From the NCBI RefSeq assembly GCF_020526085.1, contig NZ_CP084874.1, positions 2,976,001 to 3,040,000 of the forward strand: a stretch of DNA of 64,000 bases, in the 5' to 3' direction. Positions 3,060 through 52,108 of this stretch are shown here, piece after piece. The position numbers and the translations under genes are program-made. Numbering within the stretch: position 1 is the first letter of the stretch; each line of letters starts with the position of its first letter. The stretch comes from Klebsiella africana (GTDB taxonomy: Bacteria > Pseudomonadota > Gammaproteobacteria > Enterobacterales > Enterobacteriaceae). The notes under the pieces are model-generated. The model was not told where the DNA came from, did no database searches, and saw nothing but the letters and a program-made list of their open reading frames with translations.

Positions 3060-3869
3060 ATGGTCGAAACATTGCTGGAAGTTCGCCAACTCAGTAAGAC
3101 CTTTCGCTACCGCACCGGCTGGTTTCACCGCCAGACTGTGGAGGCGGTTAAGCCGCTGAGCTTCACTTTGCGCGAACGGCAGACGCTGGCGATTATCGGC
3201 GAGAATGGCTCCGGGAAATCCACCCTCGCGAAGATGCTGGCGGGCATGGTGGAACCCACCAGCGGCGAACTGCTCATCGACGATCATCCGCTAACTTTCG
3301 GGGATTACTCCTACCGCAGCCAGAAGATTCGCATGATCTTTCAGGATCCGTCGACCTCGCTGAATCCGCGCCAGCGCATCTCGCAGATCCTCGATTTTCC
3401 GCTGCGCCTGAATACCGATCTCGACGCCGAGGCGCGGCAGAAACAGATTATCGACACCCTGCGCATGGTCGGTCTGCTACCGGACCACGTCAGCTACTAC
3501 CCCCATATGCTGGCGCCAGGTCAGAAGCAACGTCTCGGCCTCGCCAGGGCGCTGATCCTGCGCCCGAAGGTCATCGTCTGCGATGAAGCGCTGGCCTCGC
3601 TGGATATGTCGATGCGCTCCCAGCTCATTAACCTGATGCTGGAGCTACAGGAGAAACAAGGCATCTCCTATATCTATGTTACTCAGCACCTGGGAATGAT
3701 GAAGCACATCAGCGATCAGGTGCTGGTAATGCATAACGGCGAAGTGGTCGAGCGCGGCAGCACTGCCGATGTGCTGGCCTCACCGCTGCACGACCTGACC
3801 CGTCGCCTGATCGCCGGCCACTTCGGTGAAGCCCTCACTGCCGATGCCTGGCGTAAAGACGGGAAATAG
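3060..3869 (+). CDS. sapF: SapF, ABC transporter ATP-binding protein
   Basis: 269-residue second ATPase of the Sap importer and the last gene of the operon. Walker A is GENGSGKS at residues 47-54. The Q-loop lies in the MIFQDPSTSLNPRQR segment typical of DppF/OppF. The signature helix reads LAPGQKQR rather than LSGGQ, followed by Walker B (VIVCDEALASLD) and an H-loop histidine in YVTQHLGMM. It forms a heterodimer with SapD under the SapBC channel. A GC-rich stem-loop follows the stop. In E. coli ycjD and fabI come next; here a permease/HutD insertion separates sapF from fabI. Confidence 0.95.
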   Translation: MVETLLEVRQLSKTFRYRTGWFHRQTVEAVKPLSFTLRERQTLAIIGENGSGKSTLAKMLAGMVEPTSGELLIDDHPLTFGDYSYRSQKIRMIFQDPSTSLNPRQRISQILDFPLRLNTDLDAEARQKQIIDTLRMVGLLPDHVSYYPHMLAPGQKQRLGLARALILRPKVIVCDEALASLDMSMRSQLINLMLELQEKQGISYIYVTQHLGMMKHISDQVLVMHNGEVVERGSTADVLASPLHDLTRRLIAGHFGEALTADAWRKDGK

Positions 3870-32236: not shown

Positions 32237-32284
32237 ATGAAAAAGCACGTTATCACTCTGCACAGCTGGTGGCGCACCTCCTGA
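32237..32284 (+). CDS. trpL: trp operon leader peptide
   Basis: A 15-codon leader, MKKHVITLHSWWRTS, with the tandem Trp-Trp codons that sense charged tRNA-Trp. It is followed by the attenuator hairpin. The WWRTS ending is the same as in E. coli, while the N-terminal part differs. Ribosome stalling at the Trp codons favours the antiterminator and permits trpE transcription. Confidence 0.9.
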   Translation: MKKHVITLHSWWRTS

Positions 32285-32330
32285 CAACGGGCGGCGTGAT
32301 CGCGTTTTGCATTTAGCATACAGATACCCG

Positions 32331-32355
32331 GCCCGCCAATGAGCGGGCTTTTTAT
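32331..32355 (+). terminator. trp attenuator
   Basis: GCCCGC (32331-32336) pairs with GCGGGC (32343-32348) and is followed by a T-rich tract (tttttatt). It lies between trpL and trpE, in the position of the 3:4 terminator hairpin of the trp leader. Confidence 0.88.
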
Positions 32356-32389
32356 TGGACAAAAATAATACGAACAGGCGAGAACCATA

Positions 32390-36918: not shown

Positions 36919-38112
36919 ATGAGCACTTTACTGAACCCCTACTTCGGCGAATTCGGCGGCATGTATGTGCCGCAGATCCTGATGCCCGCCCTGCGCCAGC
37001 TGGAAGAAGCCTTTGTCAGCGCGCAGAAGGACCCGGCCTTTCAGGCGGAATTCACCGACCTGCTGAAAAACTACGCCGGTCGTCCGACGGCCCTGACCAA
37101 ATGCCGGAATCTGACCGAAGGCACCCGCACCACCCTGTACCTGAAACGCGAAGATCTGCTGCACGGCGGCGCGCACAAAACCAACCAGGTGCTGGGCCAG
37201 GCTCTGCTGGCCAAACGGATGGGCAAAACCGAGATTATCGCCGAGACCGGCGCCGGCCAGCACGGCGTCGCCTCAGCGCTGGCCAGCGCCCTGCTCGGCC
37301 TGAAATGCCGTATCTACATGGGCGCCAAGGACGTCGAGCGCCAGTCGCCGAACGTCTTCCGTATGCGCCTGATGGGTGCCGAGGTGATCCCGGTGCACAG
37401 CGGCTCCGCCACGCTGAAAGATGCCTGTAACGAGGCGCTGCGCGACTGGTCCGGCAGCTACGAAAAGGCGCACTATATGCTGGGCACCGCTGCCGGTCCG
37501 CACCCGTTCCCGACCATTGTGCGTGAATTCCAGCGCATGATTGGCGAAGAAACCAAAGCGCAGATCCTCGAAAAAGAGGGCCGCCTGCCGGACGCGGTGA
37601 TCGCCTGCGTCGGCGGCGGGTCAAACGCCATCGGCATGTTTGCTGATTTTATCGAGGAAACCAACGTCGGCCTGATCGGCGTGGAACCGGCCGGGCACGG
37701 TATCGAAAGCGGGGAACATGGCGCGCCGCTGAAGCATGGCCGCGTGGGGATCTACTTCGGCATGAAGTCGCCGATGATGCAGACCGCCGACGGCCAGATC
37801 GAGGAATCTTACTCCATTTCCGCCGGGCTGGACTTCCCGTCCGTTGGGCCGCAGCACGCGTTTCTGAACAGCACCGGTCGCGCCGACTATGTGTCGATCA
37901 CCGACGACGAAGCGCTGGACGCGTTTAAAGCGCTCTCGCGCCACGAAGGGATCATCCCGGCGCTGGAGTCCTCTCACGCTCTGGCCCACGCGCTGAAGAT
38001 GATGCGCGAGAACCCCGAAAAAGAACAGCTGCTGGTGGTTAACCTCTCCGGCCGCGGCGACAAAGACATTTTCACCGTACATGACATCCTGAAAGCGCGA
38101 GGGGAAATCTGA
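36919..38112 (+). CDS. trpB: Tryptophan synthase beta chain
   Basis: 397-residue pyridoxal-phosphate enzyme that joins indole with serine. Lys87 in [15 protein letters not shown] binds the cofactor, and the phosphate loop is [10 protein letters not shown] (near residue 232). Full length for the family. The stop shares bases with the trpA start (TGATG), so the two subunits are co-translated. Confidence 0.98.
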
Positions 38113-38921
38113 TGGAACGCTATGAAACGCTGTTTGCCCAACTGAAAAATCGCCAGGAAGGCGCCTTCGTTCCCTTTGTCACCCTTGGCGATCCGGGACC
38201 GGAGCAGTCGCTGAAAATTATCGATGCGCTGATCGAAGGCGGCGCCGATGCCCTTGAGCTGGGGATCCCTTTCTCCGACCCGCTGGCGGACGGCCCGACC
38301 ATCCAGGGCGCGGCCCTGCGCGCCTTCGCCGCGGGGGTAACCCCGGCGCAGTGCTTTGAGATGCTGGCGGCGATCCGCCAGAAGCATCCAACCATCCCAA
38401 TCGGCCTGCTGATGTACGCCAATCTTGTCTTCAGCCCGGGCATCGATGCGTTCTATGCCCAGTGCGAACGCGTCGGCGTCGACTCGGTGCTGGTGGCCGA
38501 CGTGCCGGTGGAAGAGTCCGCCCCGTTCCGCCAGGCGGCGATGCGTCATAATATCGCGCCGATTTTCATCTGCCCGCCCAATGCGGATGACGATTTACTG
38601 CGCCAGATTGCCTCTTATGGCCGCGGCTACACCTATCTGCTGTCGCGTGCCGGGGTGACGGGTGCGGAAAATCGCGCCGCGCTACCGCTGCACCACCTGG
38701 TGGAGAAGCTGGCGGAATATCACGCCGCACCGCCGCTGCAGGGCTTTGGTATCTCCGCGCCGGAGCAGGTGAGCGCCGCCATTGACGCCGGGGCCGCCGG
38801 GGCTATCTCCGGTTCCGCCATCGTCAAAATCATCGAACGCCACCTCGATGAGCCGCAGATCATGCTCGACGAACTGAAAGCCTTCGTCCAGAGTCTGAAG
38901 GCGGCGACCAAAACCGCCTGA
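38112..38921 (+). CDS. trpA: Tryptophan synthase alpha chain
   Basis: 269-residue TIM-barrel subunit that cleaves indole-glycerol phosphate and channels indole to TrpB. Catalytic Glu49 and Asp60 lie in [20 protein letters not shown]. The C-terminal phosphate-binding loop is [10 protein letters not shown] and GAISGSAIV. It is the last gene of the operon and is followed by a strong hairpin. Confidence 0.98.
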
Positions 38922-43892: not shown

Positions 43893-44351
43893 TTAGCTCG
43901 GTTGCTGCAGACTGTCGGCGTATTTGCGCGTTAAGCGAAACAGCGCTTGCACCTCCTCTTCCGGCCACTGCGCCAGCACCTGATTCATTAACCGCCGCCG
44001 CGCTAGCGCAATACTGTCGATCATCCGTTGTCCCTTGGCGCTAAGCGTCACTTCACTGATCCGTCGGTCATGACGGTTAGGTTGCTTACAGGCGAGTCCC
44101 TGGGCTTCCAGTTTTTTCACCTGGCGGCTGACGGTGGTGTAATCGCGCCCTAAATGATCCGCCAGCTCAACCACCCCTACCGGGCCATGGCGCCCTACCG
44201 CCACCAGCAGCGGAAACAGCATCTGTTCCAGCTGGACGCCGGCCGCCTGGAGGATCTGCTCGTCGCGCAGCGGCTGGTTCATCACGCTGATGATATCCAG
44301 CAGCGCGCCGTGAAAATCGGTAATGTCGTAGTCATTATGTGCATCTTGCAT
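43893..44351 (-). CDS. MarR-family transcriptional regulator
   Basis: 152-residue winged helix-turn-helix repressor. The recognition region is VVELADHLGRDYTTVSRQVKKLEAQGLA and the wing is KQPNRHDRRISEVTLSAKGQRM (residues 60-110). It is divergent from an MDR oxidoreductase, with a perfect TATGTGTA inverted repeat in the shared promoter. It probably represses that gene and itself, responding to a small ligand such as a quinone or phenolic compound, which is inference. Confidence 0.88.
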   Translation of the reverse strand: MQDAHNDYDITDFHGALLDIISVMNQPLRDEQILQAAGVQLEQMLFPLLVAVGRHGPVGVVELADHLGRDYTTVSRQVKKLEAQGLACKQPNRHDRRISEVTLSAKGQRMIDSIALARRRLMNQVLAQWPEEEVQALFRLTRKYADSLQQPS

Positions 44352-44425: not shown

Positions 44426-45373
44426 ATGAAAGCAGCCGTGGTTTTTGACCTTGCAGAAGGCCCGGTTTGGGCCGATTTTATCGAGCCGCAGCCTGCGCCG
44501 GGCCAGACGCTCATTGACATCCGCGCCGCCGCGATGAGCCATGTGGTCAAGGCCCGGGCGTCTGGAAGCCATTACAGCTTCGATGGCAATCTGCCCTTTG
44601 TGCCCGGTATCGATGGCGTCGGCACATTACCCAATGGCCAGCGCGTCTACTTCGCCTTCCCCACCGCCCCCTTCGGCAGTATGGCGCAGCGGGCGCCGGT
44701 TGCCCTGCAGAATTGCCTGCCGGTGCCGGATGCGCTCGATGATGTTAGCGCGGCGGCGATGGCCAATCCCGGCATGTCCGCATGGGCATCGCTGGTGACA
44801 CGCGCCCAGCTCCAGGCCGGTGAAACGGTGCTGATTAACGGCGCCACCGGCAGCGCCGGTCAACTGGCGGTGCAGATTGCCCGCTATCTGGGGACAAAAA
44901 AAATCATTGCGACCGGGCGTAATGCGCAGGCGCTGGCGGCGCTGGACGCCGATGTGTGCATTCAGTTAAACGCTGATGATAAAACAGTGACTGAACAGTT
45001 TTCAGTGGCCAGCGCCGCACAGATTGATGTGGTTATCGATTATCTGTGGGGGCGCAGCGCGGAATTGTTATTGCCGGCGCTGGCGAAATATACCCCTGCC
45101 GGCAGTCCGGTGCGCTATGTGCAGGTGGGATCCCTGGCTGGCGCCGATATCGCGTTAAATGGCGCAGTGCTGCGTTCCGCCCCACTCCTGCTGATGGGCA
45201 GCGGTATCGGTAGCCTGACGATGCCGCAACTGCTGGCGGCGACGGGTGAAATGCTGCAGGCGGCGGTGCCGGGTAAATTGACCATCGCCACTACCCCGCG
45301 GCCGCTGCAGGAGATCGCGGCGGCCTGGCCGCAGGACGACAGCCAGAAGCGCACGGTCTTTACCCTCGGATAA
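44426..45373 (+). CDS. Zinc-independent MDR (quinone oxidoreductase-like) alcohol dehydrogenase family protein
   Basis: 315-residue medium-chain dehydrogenase/reductase. The N-terminal GroES-like domain (residues 1-125) lacks the zinc cysteines of classical alcohol dehydrogenases. The nucleotide-binding domain has VLINGATGSAGQLAVQIARYLG (from about residue 133). It is probably an NADPH-dependent quinone or enone reductase. Expression is likely controlled by the divergent MarR protein. A RyhB-family RNA gene starts about 65 bases beyond its stop. Confidence 0.82.
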   Translation: MKAAVVFDLAEGPVWADFIEPQPAPGQTLIDIRAAAMSHVVKARASGSHYSFDGNLPFVPGIDGVGTLPNGQRVYFAFPTAPFGSMAQRAPVALQNCLPVPDALDDVSAAAMANPGMSAWASLVTRAQLQAGETVLINGATGSAGQLAVQIARYLGTKKIIATGRNAQALAALDADVCIQLNADDKTVTEQFSVASAAQIDVVIDYLWGRSAELLLPALAKYTPAGSPVRYVQVGSLAGADIALNGAVLRSAPLLLMGSGIGSLTMPQLLAATGEMLQAAVPGKLTIATTPRPLQEIAAAWPQDDSQKRTVFTLG

Positions 45374-45401
45374 AAAAATCGCTTCCGCACAAAAGATGGG
45401 G

Positions 45402-45437
45402 TTGATATCTTAAATGAGAAATATTATCTTTCTCATT
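45402..45437 (+). promoter_or_regulatory. Promoter with Fur-like box for the RyhB-family RNA
   Basis: A -35 TTGATA (45402-45407) and -10 TATCTT (45425-45430) are 17 bases apart. The -10 lies within a perfect 9-bp inverted repeat, AATGAGAAA (45413-45421) and TTTCTCATT (45429-45437), resembling a Fur box. A start about 45438 matches the 5' end of the first RNA hairpin. Fur repression of ryhB is known; this site is read from sequence only. Confidence 0.6.
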
Positions 45438-45532
45438 ACTGAATAGTTGAGTAAATAACTCAGGTATTCAGTACGACATTGCTCACATTGCTTCCAGTAT
45501 TTTTGCCCGCACGTGTGCGGGCTTTTTTTTAC
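45438..45532 (+). ncRNA. ryhB: RyhB-family iron-responsive small RNA
   Basis: About 95 nt long. Bases 45474-45491 read CGACATTGCTCACATTGC, followed by TTCCAGTATT, the invariant core by which RyhB pairs with sodB, sdh and other iron-protein mRNAs. A 5' hairpin (CTGAATA/TATTCAG with inner TGAGT/ACTCA, 45440-45471) precedes the core as in E. coli RyhB. A Rho-independent terminator follows: GCCCGCAC-GTGCGGGC and eight T (45505-45530), giving an Hfq-binding tail. Total architecture and length match the 90-nt E. coli RNA. ryhB in E. coli is at yhhX-yhhY, so this is probably a second copy, analogous to RyhB-2 of Salmonella. Neighbouring fiu suggests iron control of the whole locus. Confidence 0.88.
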
Positions 45533-45805
45533 TCGCAACACACCTCACGCACCAGCTGCCGCCGCCAGCGGTGGCCCGGCGCCTGCTCCAGACGACATAC
45601 GGCGCGGCATCGTTCTCCGTCACGCAGCGAGAGAACGCTCGCTGGTCATCACCCCGACCACGCGGTCGCGGTACAGAGCCTGCAGAGGGATCGGTGGTCC
45701 CCTATTTTTCATTACACCAATTTCCAGAACGGCGTCCTCCTCGCGCAGAAGGAGGGCATCTTTTATGCCAAAAGCCACGAAGCGCTGGGTTAACCCTCGC
45801 GCCTG
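45529..45805 (-). pseudogene. Possible decayed coding remnant, minus strand, family unknown
   Basis: On the minus strand a stop-free frame of 61 codons (45620-45805, containing IKDALLLREEDAVLEI and RVVGVM) ends in TGA. The sequence then reads on sensibly in another frame (LRDGERCRAVCRLEQAP...) to a TAA at 45529-45531, inside the RyhB terminator. This looks like a gene 3' fragment with a frameshift and no start codon at a normal place. I do not recognise the family, so it may be chance in GC-rich DNA. Confidence 0.3.
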
Positions 45806-46075
45806 TCACTTCGCAGCGCGGCCTGTCTCCGGCCTCTTTCAGCCGCCCTTTCGCTCCAATACCACCCTTTTCGTTCAAAATTTGTGAATTATGTAAATTG
45901 CGATGAAGAAATAAGTTTAAACGTCAACTTTTCTATGTAAATATTAAGAAGAATGATAACTATTCTTTTTATCATTTATGAAGTCACACCGGGTCAGCGC
46001 AAGCCAGACGACGAATAACGTCGCTTTTGCGCGGTGTGAGATGTGCTAATAACTAAAAATAAGCCTGCATTTATC
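45533..46075. other. Interval between ryhB-like gene and fiu
   Basis: 540 bases with no intact gene. The left 350 bases are GC-rich and contain the possible coding remnant described at 45529-45805. The right 190 bases are AT-rich and hold the fiu promoter and Fur-like box. Confidence 0.6.
45952..45976. promoter_or_regulatory. Fur-like box upstream of fiu
   Basis: AATGATAA (45952-45959) and TTATCATT (45969-45976) are inverted arms around a 9-base AT-rich spacer. Each arm matches half of the Fur consensus (GATAATGATAATCATTATC). It is about 100 bases upstream of fiu and fits iron repression of a siderophore receptor. Confidence 0.6.
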
Positions 46076-48361
46076 ATGGAAAAAAACGCTTCTCTGCCTT
46101 TCGGCAGTTTCAACTCATTGGCATTGTTTACGGGTCTGTGTCTGGGTGCCTCACCGGCAACGGGCATCGCAGCGGAAAAATCGGTCAAAAATAGTGAAGA
46201 GACGCTGGTGGTGGAAGCCAGCCCACCTTCACTTTATTCTCCCGGCGCCTCTGCCGATCCGAAATTCAATAAACCGCTGGTCGATACCACCCGCACCATC
46301 ACCGTGATCCCGGAACAGGTGATTAAAGATCAGGGCGTCACCAACCTGACTGACGCCCTCAAAAACGTCCCCGGCGTCGGGGCGTTTTATGCCGGGGAGA
46401 ATGGCAGCTCAACCACCGGAGATGCCATCTACATGCGCGGCGTGGATACCTCTAACAGCATCTATGTGGACGGCATTCGCGACATCGGCAGCGTGACGCG
46501 CGATACCTTCAATACCCAGCAGGTGGAAGTCATCAAAGGGCCCGCCGGCACGGACTATGGCCGCAGCGCGCCCTCCGGCTCGATCAATATGATCAGCAAG
46601 CAGCCGCGCCTTGACTCCGGGATCGACGGTTCAGCCAGCATCGGCAGCGCCTGGTCGCGCCGGGGCACTCTCGACCTTAACCAGGCGTTTAGCGATAACG
46701 CTGCGTTCCGTCTGAACCTGATGGGGGAAAAAACCCATGACGCCGGTCGGGACCGCATTGAAAACGAACGCTATGGCATCGCACCGTCGCTGGCCTTCGG
46801 ACTCGATACCCCAACTCGTCTGTATCTGAACTATCTGCACGTCCGGCAGAACAACACCCCGGATGGCGGGATCCCCACCGTCGGCCTGCCGGGCTATTCG
46901 GCGCCTTCGCCGAAATATGCCGCGCTCAACTCCGCCGGCAAGGTCGATACCAACAATTTCTATGGCACCGACTCCGATTATGATAAATCCACCACCGACA
47001 GCGGCACCCTGCGCTTCGAACATGATCTGACGGACAATACCACCGTGCGCAATACCACCCGTTGGTCGCGGGTGAAACAGGAGTATCTTCTGACCGCGGT
47101 GATGGGCGGCGCGAGCAATATCACCGCTCCTGATATCAATGACGTCAACACCTGGAGCTGGTCGCGTCTGGTTAATACCAAAGATGTCAGCAACCGCATT
47201 CTGACCAACCAGACCAATATCACCTCGACGTTCAATACCGGCTCGATAGGCCATGACATCAGCGCTGGCGTGGAGTTCACCCGGGAAAACCAGACCAACT
47301 ATGGCGTTAACGCCCTGACCGCGCCGGCGGTGAATCTCTACCATCCGGTGAGTCACCTGTCGATTGGCGGGCTGGACAGAAACGGGGCGAACGCCAACGG
47401 CCAGACCGATACCTTCGGGATTTATGCCTTCGATACGCTGGCGCTGACCGAGCGGATTGAGGTCAACGGCGGACTGCGTCTCGACAATTACCATACCAAA
47501 TATGACAGCGCCACCGCCTGCGGCGGTAGCGGACGCGGGGCTATCGCCTGCCCGCCTGGCCAGTCGACCGGCAGCCCGGTCACCACCGTCGACACCGCCA
47601 AATCCGGCAATCTGGTTAACTGGAAAGCCGGGGCGCTGTACCACTTAACCGAGCAGGGCAATGTCTACGTCAACTACGCTATCTCACAGCAGCCGCCGGG
47701 GGGCAGCAGCTTCGCCCTGGCCGCCAGCGGCAGCGGCAACAGCGCTAACCGCACCGACTTTAAGCCGCAGAAGGCAAAATCCAGCGAGCTGGGCACCAAG
47801 TGGCAAATCTTCGACAAACGTCTGCTGCTCAGCGCGGCGTTATTCCGTACGGATATTGAAAACGAAGTGGCCGCCAACGATGACGGGACCTGGTCGCAGT
47901 ATGGCAAAAAGCGCGTGGAGGGGTATGAGCTCTCCGCGACCGGAAACCTGACCGCGGACTGGACGATCATCGCGGGCTACACTCAGCAGCATGCGACAGT
48001 GACAGAGGGGCAGAATGTGGCGCAGGATGGATCTTCCGCCCTGGCCTACACCCCGAAACATGCCTTTACGCTATGGACGCAGTATCAAGCCACCAGCGAT
48101 CTGTCCGTCGGCGGCGGTGTGCGCTATGTCGGGAGCCTGCGCCGGGGCAGCGATGGCGCGGTCGGTACCCCGGATCACACCGAGGGCTACTGGGTCGCCG
48201 ATGCCAAACTGGGCTATCGGGTCAACAGCAACCTCGATCTGCAGCTCAATATGTACAACCTGTTTGATACCGATTACGTGGCCTCCATCAACAAGAGCGG
48301 CTATCGCTATCATCCGGGCGAGCCCCGTACCTTTATGCTGACGGCGAACGTCCATTTCTGA
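46076..48361 (+). CDS. fiu: Fiu, catecholate siderophore TonB-dependent receptor
   Basis: 761-residue outer-membrane receptor, close to the 760 of E. coli Fiu. The ATG at 46076 (MEKNASLPFGSFNSLALF) is chosen over a GTG at 46043 because it aligns with the E. coli start. A signal peptide of about 32 residues ends near GIAA, followed by a TonB box (ETLVVEAS), a plug domain and a 22-strand barrel ending in the aromatic TANVHF. Distinctive Fiu blocks include DPKFNKPLVDTTRTITV, NVPGVGAFYAGENG and NKSGYRYHPGEPRTF. It takes up monomeric catecholate-iron and catechol-cephalosporins. It is followed by piuC; the pair is Fur-type controlled. Confidence 0.95.
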   Translation: MEKNASLPFGSFNSLALFTGLCLGASPATGIAAEKSVKNSEETLVVEASPPSLYSPGASADPKFNKPLVDTTRTITVIPEQVIKDQGVTNLTDALKNVPGVGAFYAGENGSSTTGDAIYMRGVDTSNSIYVDGIRDIGSVTRDTFNTQQVEVIKGPAGTDYGRSAPSGSINMISKQPRLDSGIDGSASIGSAWSRRGTLDLNQAFSDNAAFRLNLMGEKTHDAGRDRIENERYGIAPSLAFGLDTPTRLYLNYLHVRQNNTPDGGIPTVGLPGYSAPSPKYAALNSAGKVDTNNFYGTDSDYDKSTTDSGTLRFEHDLTDNTTVRNTTRWSRVKQEYLLTAVMGGASNITAPDINDVNTWSWSRLVNTKDVSNRILTNQTNITSTFNTGSIGHDISAGVEFTRENQTNYGVNALTAPAVNLYHPVSHLSIGGLDRNGANANGQTDTFGIYAFDTLALTERIEVNGGLRLDNYHTKYDSATACGGSGRGAIACPPGQSTGSPVTTVDTAKSGNLVNWKAGALYHLTEQGNVYVNYAISQQPPGGSSFALAASGSGNSANRTDFKPQKAKSSELGTKWQIFDKRLLLSAALFRTDIENEVAANDDGTWSQYGKKRVEGYELSATGNLTADWTIIAGYTQQHATVTEGQNVAQDGSSALAYTPKHAFTLWTQYQATSDLSVGGGVRYVGSLRRGSDGAVGTPDHTEGYWVADAKLGYRVNSNLDLQLNMYNLFDTDYVASINKSGYRYHPGEPRTFMLTANVHF

Positions 48362-48409: not shown

Positions 48410-49087
48410 ATGATGTATCACATTCCTGACGTGCTATCGACAGACCAGGTGGCGGAATTTACCCGACAGCTGGCGCAGGCCGAGTGGGTCGACGGGCGGG
48501 TTACGGTCGGCAGCCAGGGGGCGGCCGTCAAACAGAACCAGCAGATCGATACCCGAACGCCGCTGTATGCCCAGCTGCAGACCGCTGTGCTCGACGCGCT
48601 GCGCGGCCATCCGCAGTTTTTTTCCGCCGCGCTGCCGCGGACGATTTCCGCACCGTTGTTTAATCGCTATGGGCCAGGTGAGACCTATGGTTTTCATGTC
48701 GATGGCGCCGTTCGCCAGATCGGCGAGGCGGGCTGGATGCGCACTGACCTGTCGGCAACGCTATTTCTTTGCGATCCGGAGAGCTATGAGGGCGGTGAAC
48801 TGGTGATGGAAGACACCTATGGCCAGCACCGGGTGAAACTCCCGGCCGGGCATCTGGTGCTCTATCCCGCCAGCAGCCTGCACTGCGTCACCCCGGTCAC
48901 CCGCGGCGTACGTCAGGCCTCTTTTCTGTGGATCCAGTCGATGGTCCGCGACGATAAACAGCGCGCGATGCTCTACGACCTGGACCGTACCATCCAGTCT
49001 CTGAAGGCCCGCTTTGGCGACGGAGAAGAGGTCCTCTCCCTGCTCAATATGTATCACAACCTGCTGCGCCAGTGGACGGAAGTATGA
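48410..49087 (+). CDS. piuC: PiuC (YbiX), PKHD-type Fe(II)/2-oxoglutarate hydroxylase
   Basis: 225-residue cytoplasmic dioxygenase, the same length as E. coli YbiX. The iron-binding residues are His and Asp in [10 protein letters not shown] (about 94-103) and the distal His in [12 protein letters not shown] (about 160). Further conserved parts are [14 protein letters not shown] and [12 protein letters not shown]. It is encoded 48 bases after fiu as in E. coli, in a two-gene iron operon. It is thought to aid release or modification of siderophore iron, but the substrate is not established. Confidence 0.93.
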
Positions 49088-49155: not shown

Positions 49156-49794
49156 TTAAAACCGATAGCCTGCGGAGAACATAAACACCCACGGATCCAG
49201 GCGGGTGCTGACTTTCTGGTCCACGCCGCCGGCTTTGAATTTCACATCGGTATCGATATCCATGTACCACACCGACATATTCAGCAGCCAGTCGCGGTTA
49301 ATCAGATAATCGAGGCCAACCTGCCCCGCCGCGCCCCAGGAGTCTTTGAGGCTCAGATCGGAAAGCCCGGCCGCCTTACCGGTGTCGTTAAAGTCTTCAT
49401 TAAAGAAGGTGGTGTAGTTGATACCGGCCCCCACGTACGGGCGCACCTTGCTTTGCGCATCGCCAAAGTACCACTGCGCCATCAGGGTGGGTGGCAGCTG
49501 ATGAACGGTGGCGATGGTCCCGGTTGGCCCGGTGCCGACCTTATGACGGAACGGCGTTGCCGCCAGTAATTCCACGCCAATGTTATCGGTCGCCATATAG
49601 GTAAAGGTTAAACCCAGCTGGGTGTTGTTACTGACGTTGAAACTGCCAAGGCTACCCAGCACATTGTCAGAGCCCTCCGTCGGACGGACGGTAGCGGTCC
49701 CGGCACGAATGAAAAATTCACCCGCCTCATGCGCCCAGACGCTGCCGGTAGAAAGCGTGCCAAGAATCAATGCCGCCGCTGCTAACTTCTTCAT
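49156..49794 (-). CDS. ompW: OmpW, outer membrane protein W
   Basis: 212-residue eight-stranded beta-barrel precursor. The ATG at 49794 (MKKLAAAALILGTLSTGSVWAHEAG) gives a clear signal peptide cleaved after VWA and the E. coli length; the upstream extension is rejected. Conserved features are FIRAGTATVRPTEGS, ATPFRHKVG and the C-terminal SAGYRF, which BAM recognises. It forms a narrow hydrophobic channel, acts as colicin S4 receptor in E. coli, and is regulated by FNR and stress signals. Confidence 0.95.
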   Translation of the reverse strand: MKKLAAAALILGTLSTGSVWAHEAGEFFIRAGTATVRPTEGSDNVLGSLGSFNVSNNTQLGLTFTYMATDNIGVELLAATPFRHKVGTGPTGTIATVHQLPPTLMAQWYFGDAQSKVRPYVGAGINYTTFFNEDFNDTGKAAGLSDLSLKDSWGAAGQVGLDYLINRDWLLNMSVWYMDIDTDVKFKAGGVDQKVSTRLDPWVFMFSAGYRF

Positions 49795-49853
49795 ATCCAC
49801 TTCCTCATTATGGTTTTTCAGCGCGGCCAAATATACCTATAACGAGTTACGTT

Positions 49854-51840: not shown

Positions 51841-52045
51841 TTGCTCCGCCGGCGCGCCAACGCGCGCCGCGCTCACCCCGGACGATCTCACTGCGCTGGC
51901 AACCGTTCCCTGCAATCACAACTTCCGCACATAACCTGACAGCGTTTCCGCCACAATACGCAAGTTCCCTACATGATTTCTCTCAACAGCATAAAAAATT
52001 GCGGTAATTGTGAGGATTTTATGGAGATTCATTTCCTTACATTGT

Positions 52046-52064
52046 AATGATAATGGTTATCATT
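52046..52064. promoter_or_regulatory. Fur box upstream of the IroN-like receptor
   Basis: AATGATAA-TGG-TTATCATT is a perfect inverted repeat and matches the 19-bp Fur consensus at nearly all positions. It lies 45 bases before the receptor start, in the promoter. Iron-Fur repression is strongly expected. Confidence 0.85.
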
Positions 52065-52108
52065 AATATTCTCGATCTCATTTTATTGGCTTTGAAAAGG
52101 ATATTTAT

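Follow-up and report, generated by a model that had tools for sequence, protein, structure and literature searches.

Why does Klebsiella africana carry a RyhB-type small RNA gene between trpA and ompW, and to which RyhB lineage does this gene belong? The window considered here is the whole analysed stretch of DNA, 64,000 nucleotides in length. According to our analysis, the gene is very probably an orthologue, by sequence, of Salmonella RyhB-2 at another address: it is the ryhB-2 of a Klebsiella close to the K. pneumoniae complex and would act as a Fur-repressed, Hfq-dependent iron saver.

The Rfam RyhB model RF00057 matched the plus strand over its full length at window positions 45467-45530 (74.9 bits, E 3.3e-12; gathering score 55 bits), and the RyhB pairing core CGACATTGCTCACATTGCTTCCAGTATT is present in exact form at 45474-45501 (+), as recognized from the sequence and from RF00057. 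The preliminary description had placed the RNA in the RyhB family, with a search by the Rfam model as a check, and had noted a RyhB-like architecture of core, 5' hairpin and strong terminator with a U tail; the model match and the exact core bear this out, and hairpin and terminator are both predicted to form. The ryhB-2 gene spans 45438-45530 (+), its 5' end being placed by promoter spacing. It opens with a predicted RyhB-2-type 5' hairpin (45438-45472, +) consisting of an 8-bp outer stem, an inner stem and an A/T-rich loop, and ends in an intrinsic terminator (45505-45530, +) with a stem-loop at 45505-45522 followed by eight T, a putative Hfq site. A pattern scan placed a sigma70-like promoter at 45402-45430 (+), with TTGATA at 45402-45407, a 17-nt spacer and TATCTT at 45425-45430. 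Promoter-like pairs of this kind occurred three times in the 801 scanned bases against 0.7 expected, and the promoter looks alike, by eye, in the ryhB-2 loci of relatives. For the 95-nt RNA, the predicted folding energy is -31.5 kcal/mol, with a z of -4.3 relative to shuffles, and in this structure the core is open save for two base pairs. For RyhB-1 of G001, the closest genome compared, taken at a similar length, the predicted fold has a partly paired core and a z of -1.5. Promoter, 9-bp inverted repeat and 5' hairpin of ryhB-2 all lie outside what RF00057 models. An antisense or coding use of the region was also considered and, for the opposite strand, rejected, since only two ORFs there, of 43 and 46 codons, lie over the sRNA, neither an evident match to the Salmonella opposite-strand gene STM1273 (PMC2515195, as far as described there). 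The plus-strand ORFs that start inside the sRNA have 104 and 124 codons.

The gene is a second copy, as had been proposed beforehand. RyhB matches number two per genome in all 20 genomes examined of the closest genus. G001, which shares 38% of sampled 31-mers with the window, has one copy about 230 bases from a yhhX homologue and another (L032) in the gene order of the window. All 12 second copies that were fetched from the 20 genomes have the class 5' part described below, and in all 12 at least two of trpA, the MarR gene, the dehydrogenase gene and ompW flank the sRNA. Loci of the same type include those of K. pneumoniae ATCC 13883, K. oxytoca and Raoultella. In K. pneumoniae MGH 78578, a ryhB-2 separate from the yhhX-yhhY copy was named by Kim et al. 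(2012), according to whom it is backed by a transcription start and by expression profiling in exponential phase (PMC3415461). Judged by the two-copy count and by K. pneumoniae loci L074 and L113, we infer that the window locus corresponds to this ryhB-2. The gene as such is thus already known, K. pneumoniae ryhB-2 having been named in 2012. A study of RyhB function in K. pneumoniae concerns the yhhY-adjacent copy, and the accessible parts of that article hold no mention of a second one (PMC3423075). Likewise, no statement of orthology between the Klebsiella and Salmonella RyhB-2 was found in the accessible literature on RyhB in Klebsiella and on RyhB-2, which takes in few subscription journals.

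The evidence for this kinship lies in the 5' part. In an ungapped comparison of the 36 nt before the core, the window matches Salmonella RyhB-2 (L168) at 26 of 36 positions, which not one letter shuffle in 5000 attains; for an Enterobacter copy the figure is 31 of 36. The matches to RyhB-1 are at chance level, with 9/36 for G001 and 7/36 for Salmonella. The promoter agrees with that of Salmonella RyhB-2 at 34 of 49 positions. In Proteus mirabilis (L114), two copies, at 3299 and 5059 and so about 1.8 kb from each other, agree with the window 5' block at 24 and 23 of 36 positions. The low values of G125b (9/36) and G133 (12/36) arise because these are shifted by one base. We recognized the G301 match at 1352860-1352961 as Salmonella RyhB-2 because it lies near the published ryhB-2, reported between STM1273 and yeaQ at 1352987-1352875 (PMC2515195), and because its core carries the ending TATTATTT given in the consulted part of PMC7944605. 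The same source describes a large 5' stem-loop for Salmonella RyhB-2, as is seen in the window copy. Thus, the 5' hairpin was rightly said to be unlike that of E. coli RyhB. Judged by its sequence, however, the 5' part is not specific to this genome; it is a signature of the RyhB-2 class including Salmonella RyhB-2, and by hairpin and promoter the window copy appears as a member of the RyhB-2 / RfrB / IsrE class. Core, terminator design and putative Fur-type control are shared with RyhB-1 of Klebsiella and E. coli RyhB (PMC3423075, as far as covered), which differ in an unrelated 5' part and in their yhhX-yhhY locus. Yersinia RyhB2 is likened to the window copy by being a second, distal RyhB with the same core, according to the relevant part of PMC4211561.

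The 5' stem covaries across the class. In an alignment of 52 RNAs (A1), the two helices, 5' stem and terminator, pair in 93.8% of cells, and double changes are seen in 67 cells, where shuffles give 20.7 (sd 7.3). For the 5' stem by itself, another alignment (A2) shows pairing in 93.1% of cells and 21 doubly changed cells, where shuffles give 8.1 (sd 2.6). Of five measures, one did not separate A2 from shuffles, namely how many pairs show a double change at all (4 against 3.0, 147/500 as good). Compensatory changes are found at pairs 2/34, 3/33 and 4/32 in both alignments, of which A2 has 30 rows (29 distinct) taken from A1, Rfam or hits of class model R1, itself trained on A1, and shares nine rows with A1 (window, L033, L034, L036, L037, L048, L112 and two of L114). 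Left out of A2 were L143, L146, L148 and L149, the one-base-shifted L147 and second L145 copy, and repeat rows. Columns 10-14, TTGAG, are invariant in the 30 A2 rows, including four Salmonella-type rows with a varying 3' arm, and are missing in four R1 hits of 80-92 bits outside A2 (L143, L146, L148, L149).

A search by the class 5' pattern recovered 60 loci, of which 53 have the full core, six have none and one (L104) has a partial core. Since all 60 were recruited by the exact pattern, invariant 5' positions among them are partly so by construction. In L104 and L144 (CP025776.1, Enterobacter sp. EA-1), the class RyhB-2 core is 9 nt shorter, the missing bases lying between the two halves of a short repeat. 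The neighbours of the 53 full-core loci are trpA/MarR/dehydrogenase/ompW in 23 cases, yeaQ/yoaK in 21 and neither in nine (L080, L085, L086, L089, L090, L091, L092, L100 and L102, the L091 stretch being too short to show its neighbours). The yeaQ group consists of Enterobacter, Lelliottia, Leclercia and Silvania, and the trpA-ompW group includes four records titled Enterobacter sp. (L078, L087, L099, L106). In Kosakonia- and Phytobacter-type genomes, the sRNA stands beside genes that we take, from their translations, to be YncE-like or SpoIIE-phosphatase-like. Some genomes (G139, G309) hold two class copies. Salmonella RyhB-2 is found at yeaQ (the Salmonella-type copy L150 adjoins YeaQ as well) and the window copy at trpA-ompW. 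Because the 5' part is common to copies at both addresses, we take the yeaQ address as a lineage trait and not a defining one. Homology between the window and an Enterobacter roggenkampii copy is confined to 45397-45530 (85.3%), that is, promoter to terminator, and the several addresses would mean either that this unit of about 134 bp has moved or that ancient multiple copies were lost. Among the 178 GTDB-family genomes, 34 score at least 73 bits on class model R1, a count that includes training genomes and, in L149, a hit sharing fold rather than sequence; Salmonella-type RyhB-1 scores 51.8-58.3 on this model. As far as sequence comparison goes, RyhB-2 is a wide class spread over many Enterobacterales genera and several addresses, and not a Salmonella island gene. 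Its description as Salmonella-specific or as located on a Salmonella-specific island, as worded in the relevant parts of PMC4228915 and PMC4211561, does not hold for the class as a whole.

In E. coli, 5374 of 5426 genomes match a 151-base query and none covers 80% of it; the 10 matches listed cover query bases 81-141. Phage-borne copies were considered and rejected. A phage collection gave four records that match bases 81-141 only, two of them Salmonella contigs. Nine viral contigs contain the core, all with the class 5' part; L117 and L120 carry yeaQ-side genes by tblastn, six others resemble them on visual inspection, and L123 could not be placed. Five IMG/VR viral-labelled contigs (L115, L116, L118, L119, L121) start about 220 bases before an Enterobacter/Leclercia-type ryhB-2 core, as if the viral calls ended near ryhB-2. 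An E. roggenkampii circular 'plasmid' (L112, NZ_CP045066.1, 10,944 bp) bears yeaQ-ryhB-2 genes, a tyrosine integrase and IS903B and is perhaps an excised circle. In G125 (L145), two class RyhB copies lie about 1 kb apart. Besides its yeaQ-side RyhB-2, G177 holds another RyhB, differing in its 5' part, about 10 kb away (L137 13972) and a third match elsewhere.

In the window, the sRNA is preceded by trpA (38112-38921, +), a MarR-family regulator with weak family matches (43893-44351, -), both so named in the K. pneumoniae record, and a quinone oxidoreductase / zinc-type dehydrogenase family gene below curated cut-offs (44426-45373, +). It is followed by fiu, encoding a catecholate siderophore receptor (46076-48361, +; NF007349, 1398 bits, profile from residue 12 of the ORF), by ybiX/piuC for a PKHD-type hydroxylase (48410-49087, +; profile match) and by ompW (49156-49830, -; profile from residue 13 of the listed ORF). 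One stretch of K. pneumoniae record CP125156.1 (L113) likewise holds trpBA, the sRNA and ompW. The position next to fiu, given in the preliminary description, is correct for the window and does not extend to the locus in general. Among 25 sRNA-bearing stretches that reach ompW, some from genomes fetched twice, fiu lies between in five (window, L032, L033, L049, L113) and is lacking in 20, so that it is no anchor of the locus; the L074 stretch, which ends before ompW, has Fiu too. The anchors of the ryhB-2 locus are trpA and ompW, and fiu is incidental. K. pneumoniae L049, L074 and L113 have an SDR-family gene between ryhB-2 and fiu; the corresponding part of the window (45532-45950) gave no match to it. 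A tryptophan operon leader (RF00513, 81.9 bits) is present at 32261-32356 (+). Record CP125156.1, labelled a K. pneumoniae plasmid, has the size (5.37 Mb) and genes of a chromosome.

Regulation of fiu by the core was considered and rejected. The predicted pairing in the window amounts to -18.8 kcal/mol, which 44 leader shuffles in 500 equal or better, and for L032, L033, L049 and L074, the last two being the same K. pneumoniae contig, 53, 165, 131 and 137 of 500 shuffles are as good. These leader shuffles took the ATG at 46076 as the fiu start, and the neighbour screen used the listed GTG. No pairing with core or 5' block was found for the five other neighbour genes.

A perfect 9-bp inverted repeat, AATGAGAAA at 45413-45421 and TTTCTCATT at 45429-45437, overlaps the TTGATA-17-TATCTT promoter, just as had been described, and lies in a probable Fur operator at 45410-45437 (+). 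The best Fur-like 19-mer, at 45416, agrees at 14 of 19 positions with what we take to be the Fur consensus, a score that shuffling the promoter letters reached 6 times in 2000. Seven window positions score at least 14/19, including 45416; the others are 45955 upstream of fiu, 52043 and 52049 upstream of a FepA-like receptor gene, and three inside genes. Fourteen RyhB promoters from 12 other loci, one of them a RyhB-1, score 14-17/19. The imperfect site (14/19) and the three of seven such positions inside genes would weaken the case for Fur control of Klebsiella RyhB-2. Fur-like stretches are also present at 45949-45973 (fiu) and 52043-52073 (FepA-like receptor), the latter with 16/19 being the best of the window.

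We regard the following mode of action as the most likely. When iron is plentiful, Fur-Fe2+ would sit on the palindrome over the promoter and block it; under iron shortage, a RyhB-2 RNA of about 93 nt would be made by sigma70 RNA polymerase, and Hfq would bind to its 3' U-tail. The open core would then pair with the translation start regions of mRNAs that encode iron-using proteins, presumably sodB among them, which would stop translation, lead to mRNA decay and thereby spare iron. Against the sodB start of G001, the core is predicted to pair at -20.0 kcal/mol, and 4 of 1000 letter shuffles are as low. The separate 5' hairpin would leave the core accessible and might also stabilize the RNA or widen its range of targets.

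The alternative that survives best is that RyhB-2 is mainly a stationary-phase and stress version under RpoS, with iron secondary, as for Salmonella RyhB-2. In Salmonella, both RyhBs are reported to be iron-repressed via Fur, and RpoS is said to outweigh iron limitation for RyhB-2/RfrB (PMC4211561, in the part consulted), so that the main signal for RyhB-2 may be something other than iron. For Klebsiella, we consider this analogy possible though doubtful, as the palindrome overlaps the promoter and PMC3415461 reports detection of the K. pneumoniae ryhB-2 in exponentially growing cells. Both signals may act on RyhB-2.

Far less can be said for the idea that Klebsiella RyhB-1 was recently duplicated and that the new copy settled next to fiu as part of an iron island. 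The core and general design common to RyhB-1 and the iron-related neighbours, fiu and the FepA-like receptor, would fit such an origin, but the 5' block agrees with RyhB-1 at chance level (9/36) and with Salmonella RyhB-2 at 26/36, the ryhB-2 class occurs in many genera and in Proteus, and 20 of the 25 sRNA-bearing stretches reaching ompW are without fiu, which together make it very unlikely. That the gene is a decayed or silent RyhB relic is hardly credible given its intact promoter, hairpin, core and terminator, the two RyhB matches in 20/20 genus genomes, the compensatory changes in the 5' stem and the expression of K. pneumoniae ryhB-2 reported in PMC3415461.

Within the preferred reading, that of a ryhB-2 orthologous to Salmonella RyhB-2, we followed one lead on the 5' domain, a weak candidate for the partly different target set that the preliminary description had considered possible. 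The conserved 5' arm (AAUAGUUGAG and the following loop) might be a second pairing site absent from RyhB-1, binding the rpsA start at about codons 4-9 of the mRNA for ribosomal protein S1; we regard both this binding and the proposed site as improbable. The complement of the arm, CTCAACTATT, is not enriched in six Klebsiella genomes (53 occurrences against 46 for a reversed control, 5-14 per genome), six of the 53 being ryhB-2 itself, and rpsA is a candidate selected on inspection of 40 among the remaining 47 hits. The complement occurs at the rpsA start in four of the six genomes (G006, G002, G018, G011); G001 and G015 have CTCAACTGTT there. In G018, RyhB-2 and rpsA form 17 contiguous pairs with G-U allowed (15 consecutive Watson-Crick), and in G001 16 pairs including several G-U (7 consecutive Watson-Crick). 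Runs of 16-17 nt were reached by none of 12,000 control windows, and the duplex energies were equalled in 13 (G001) and 12 (G018) of 12,000. For the 28 of 53 rpsA starts that were paired with a RyhB-2 block, at most 7 of 450 other start regions bind the block as well as rpsA in 23 genomes, and pairing is poor in five (G115, G088 (Salmonella-type), G085, G142, G125). Opening the 5' hairpin would cost a predicted 14.4 kcal/mol, a near-identical rpsA site is found also in genomes with no class RyhB-2 hit (the exact 10-mer in G146), and rpsA starts are conserved for coding reasons, which argues against the lead. No link between RyhB and rpsA was found in the accessible literature on RyhB with rpsA. 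If true, the pairing would tie iron starvation to the control of translation capacity, and the complementarity offers one direct test of the role of the 5' domain.

For Klebsiella, these results would mean that K. pneumoniae work on 'RyhB' which removes the yhhY-side copy alone leaves RyhB-2 in place. Beyond the genus, they assign a known gene to a broad RyhB-2 class that occupies several loci and has a conserved 5' domain. The Salmonella RyhBs are reported to have shared and private targets, with their differing 5' ends suggested as the cause of the private ones (PMC4211561, in the part consulted), and it is the 5' domain, not the shared core, where the purpose of the second copy is to be sought.
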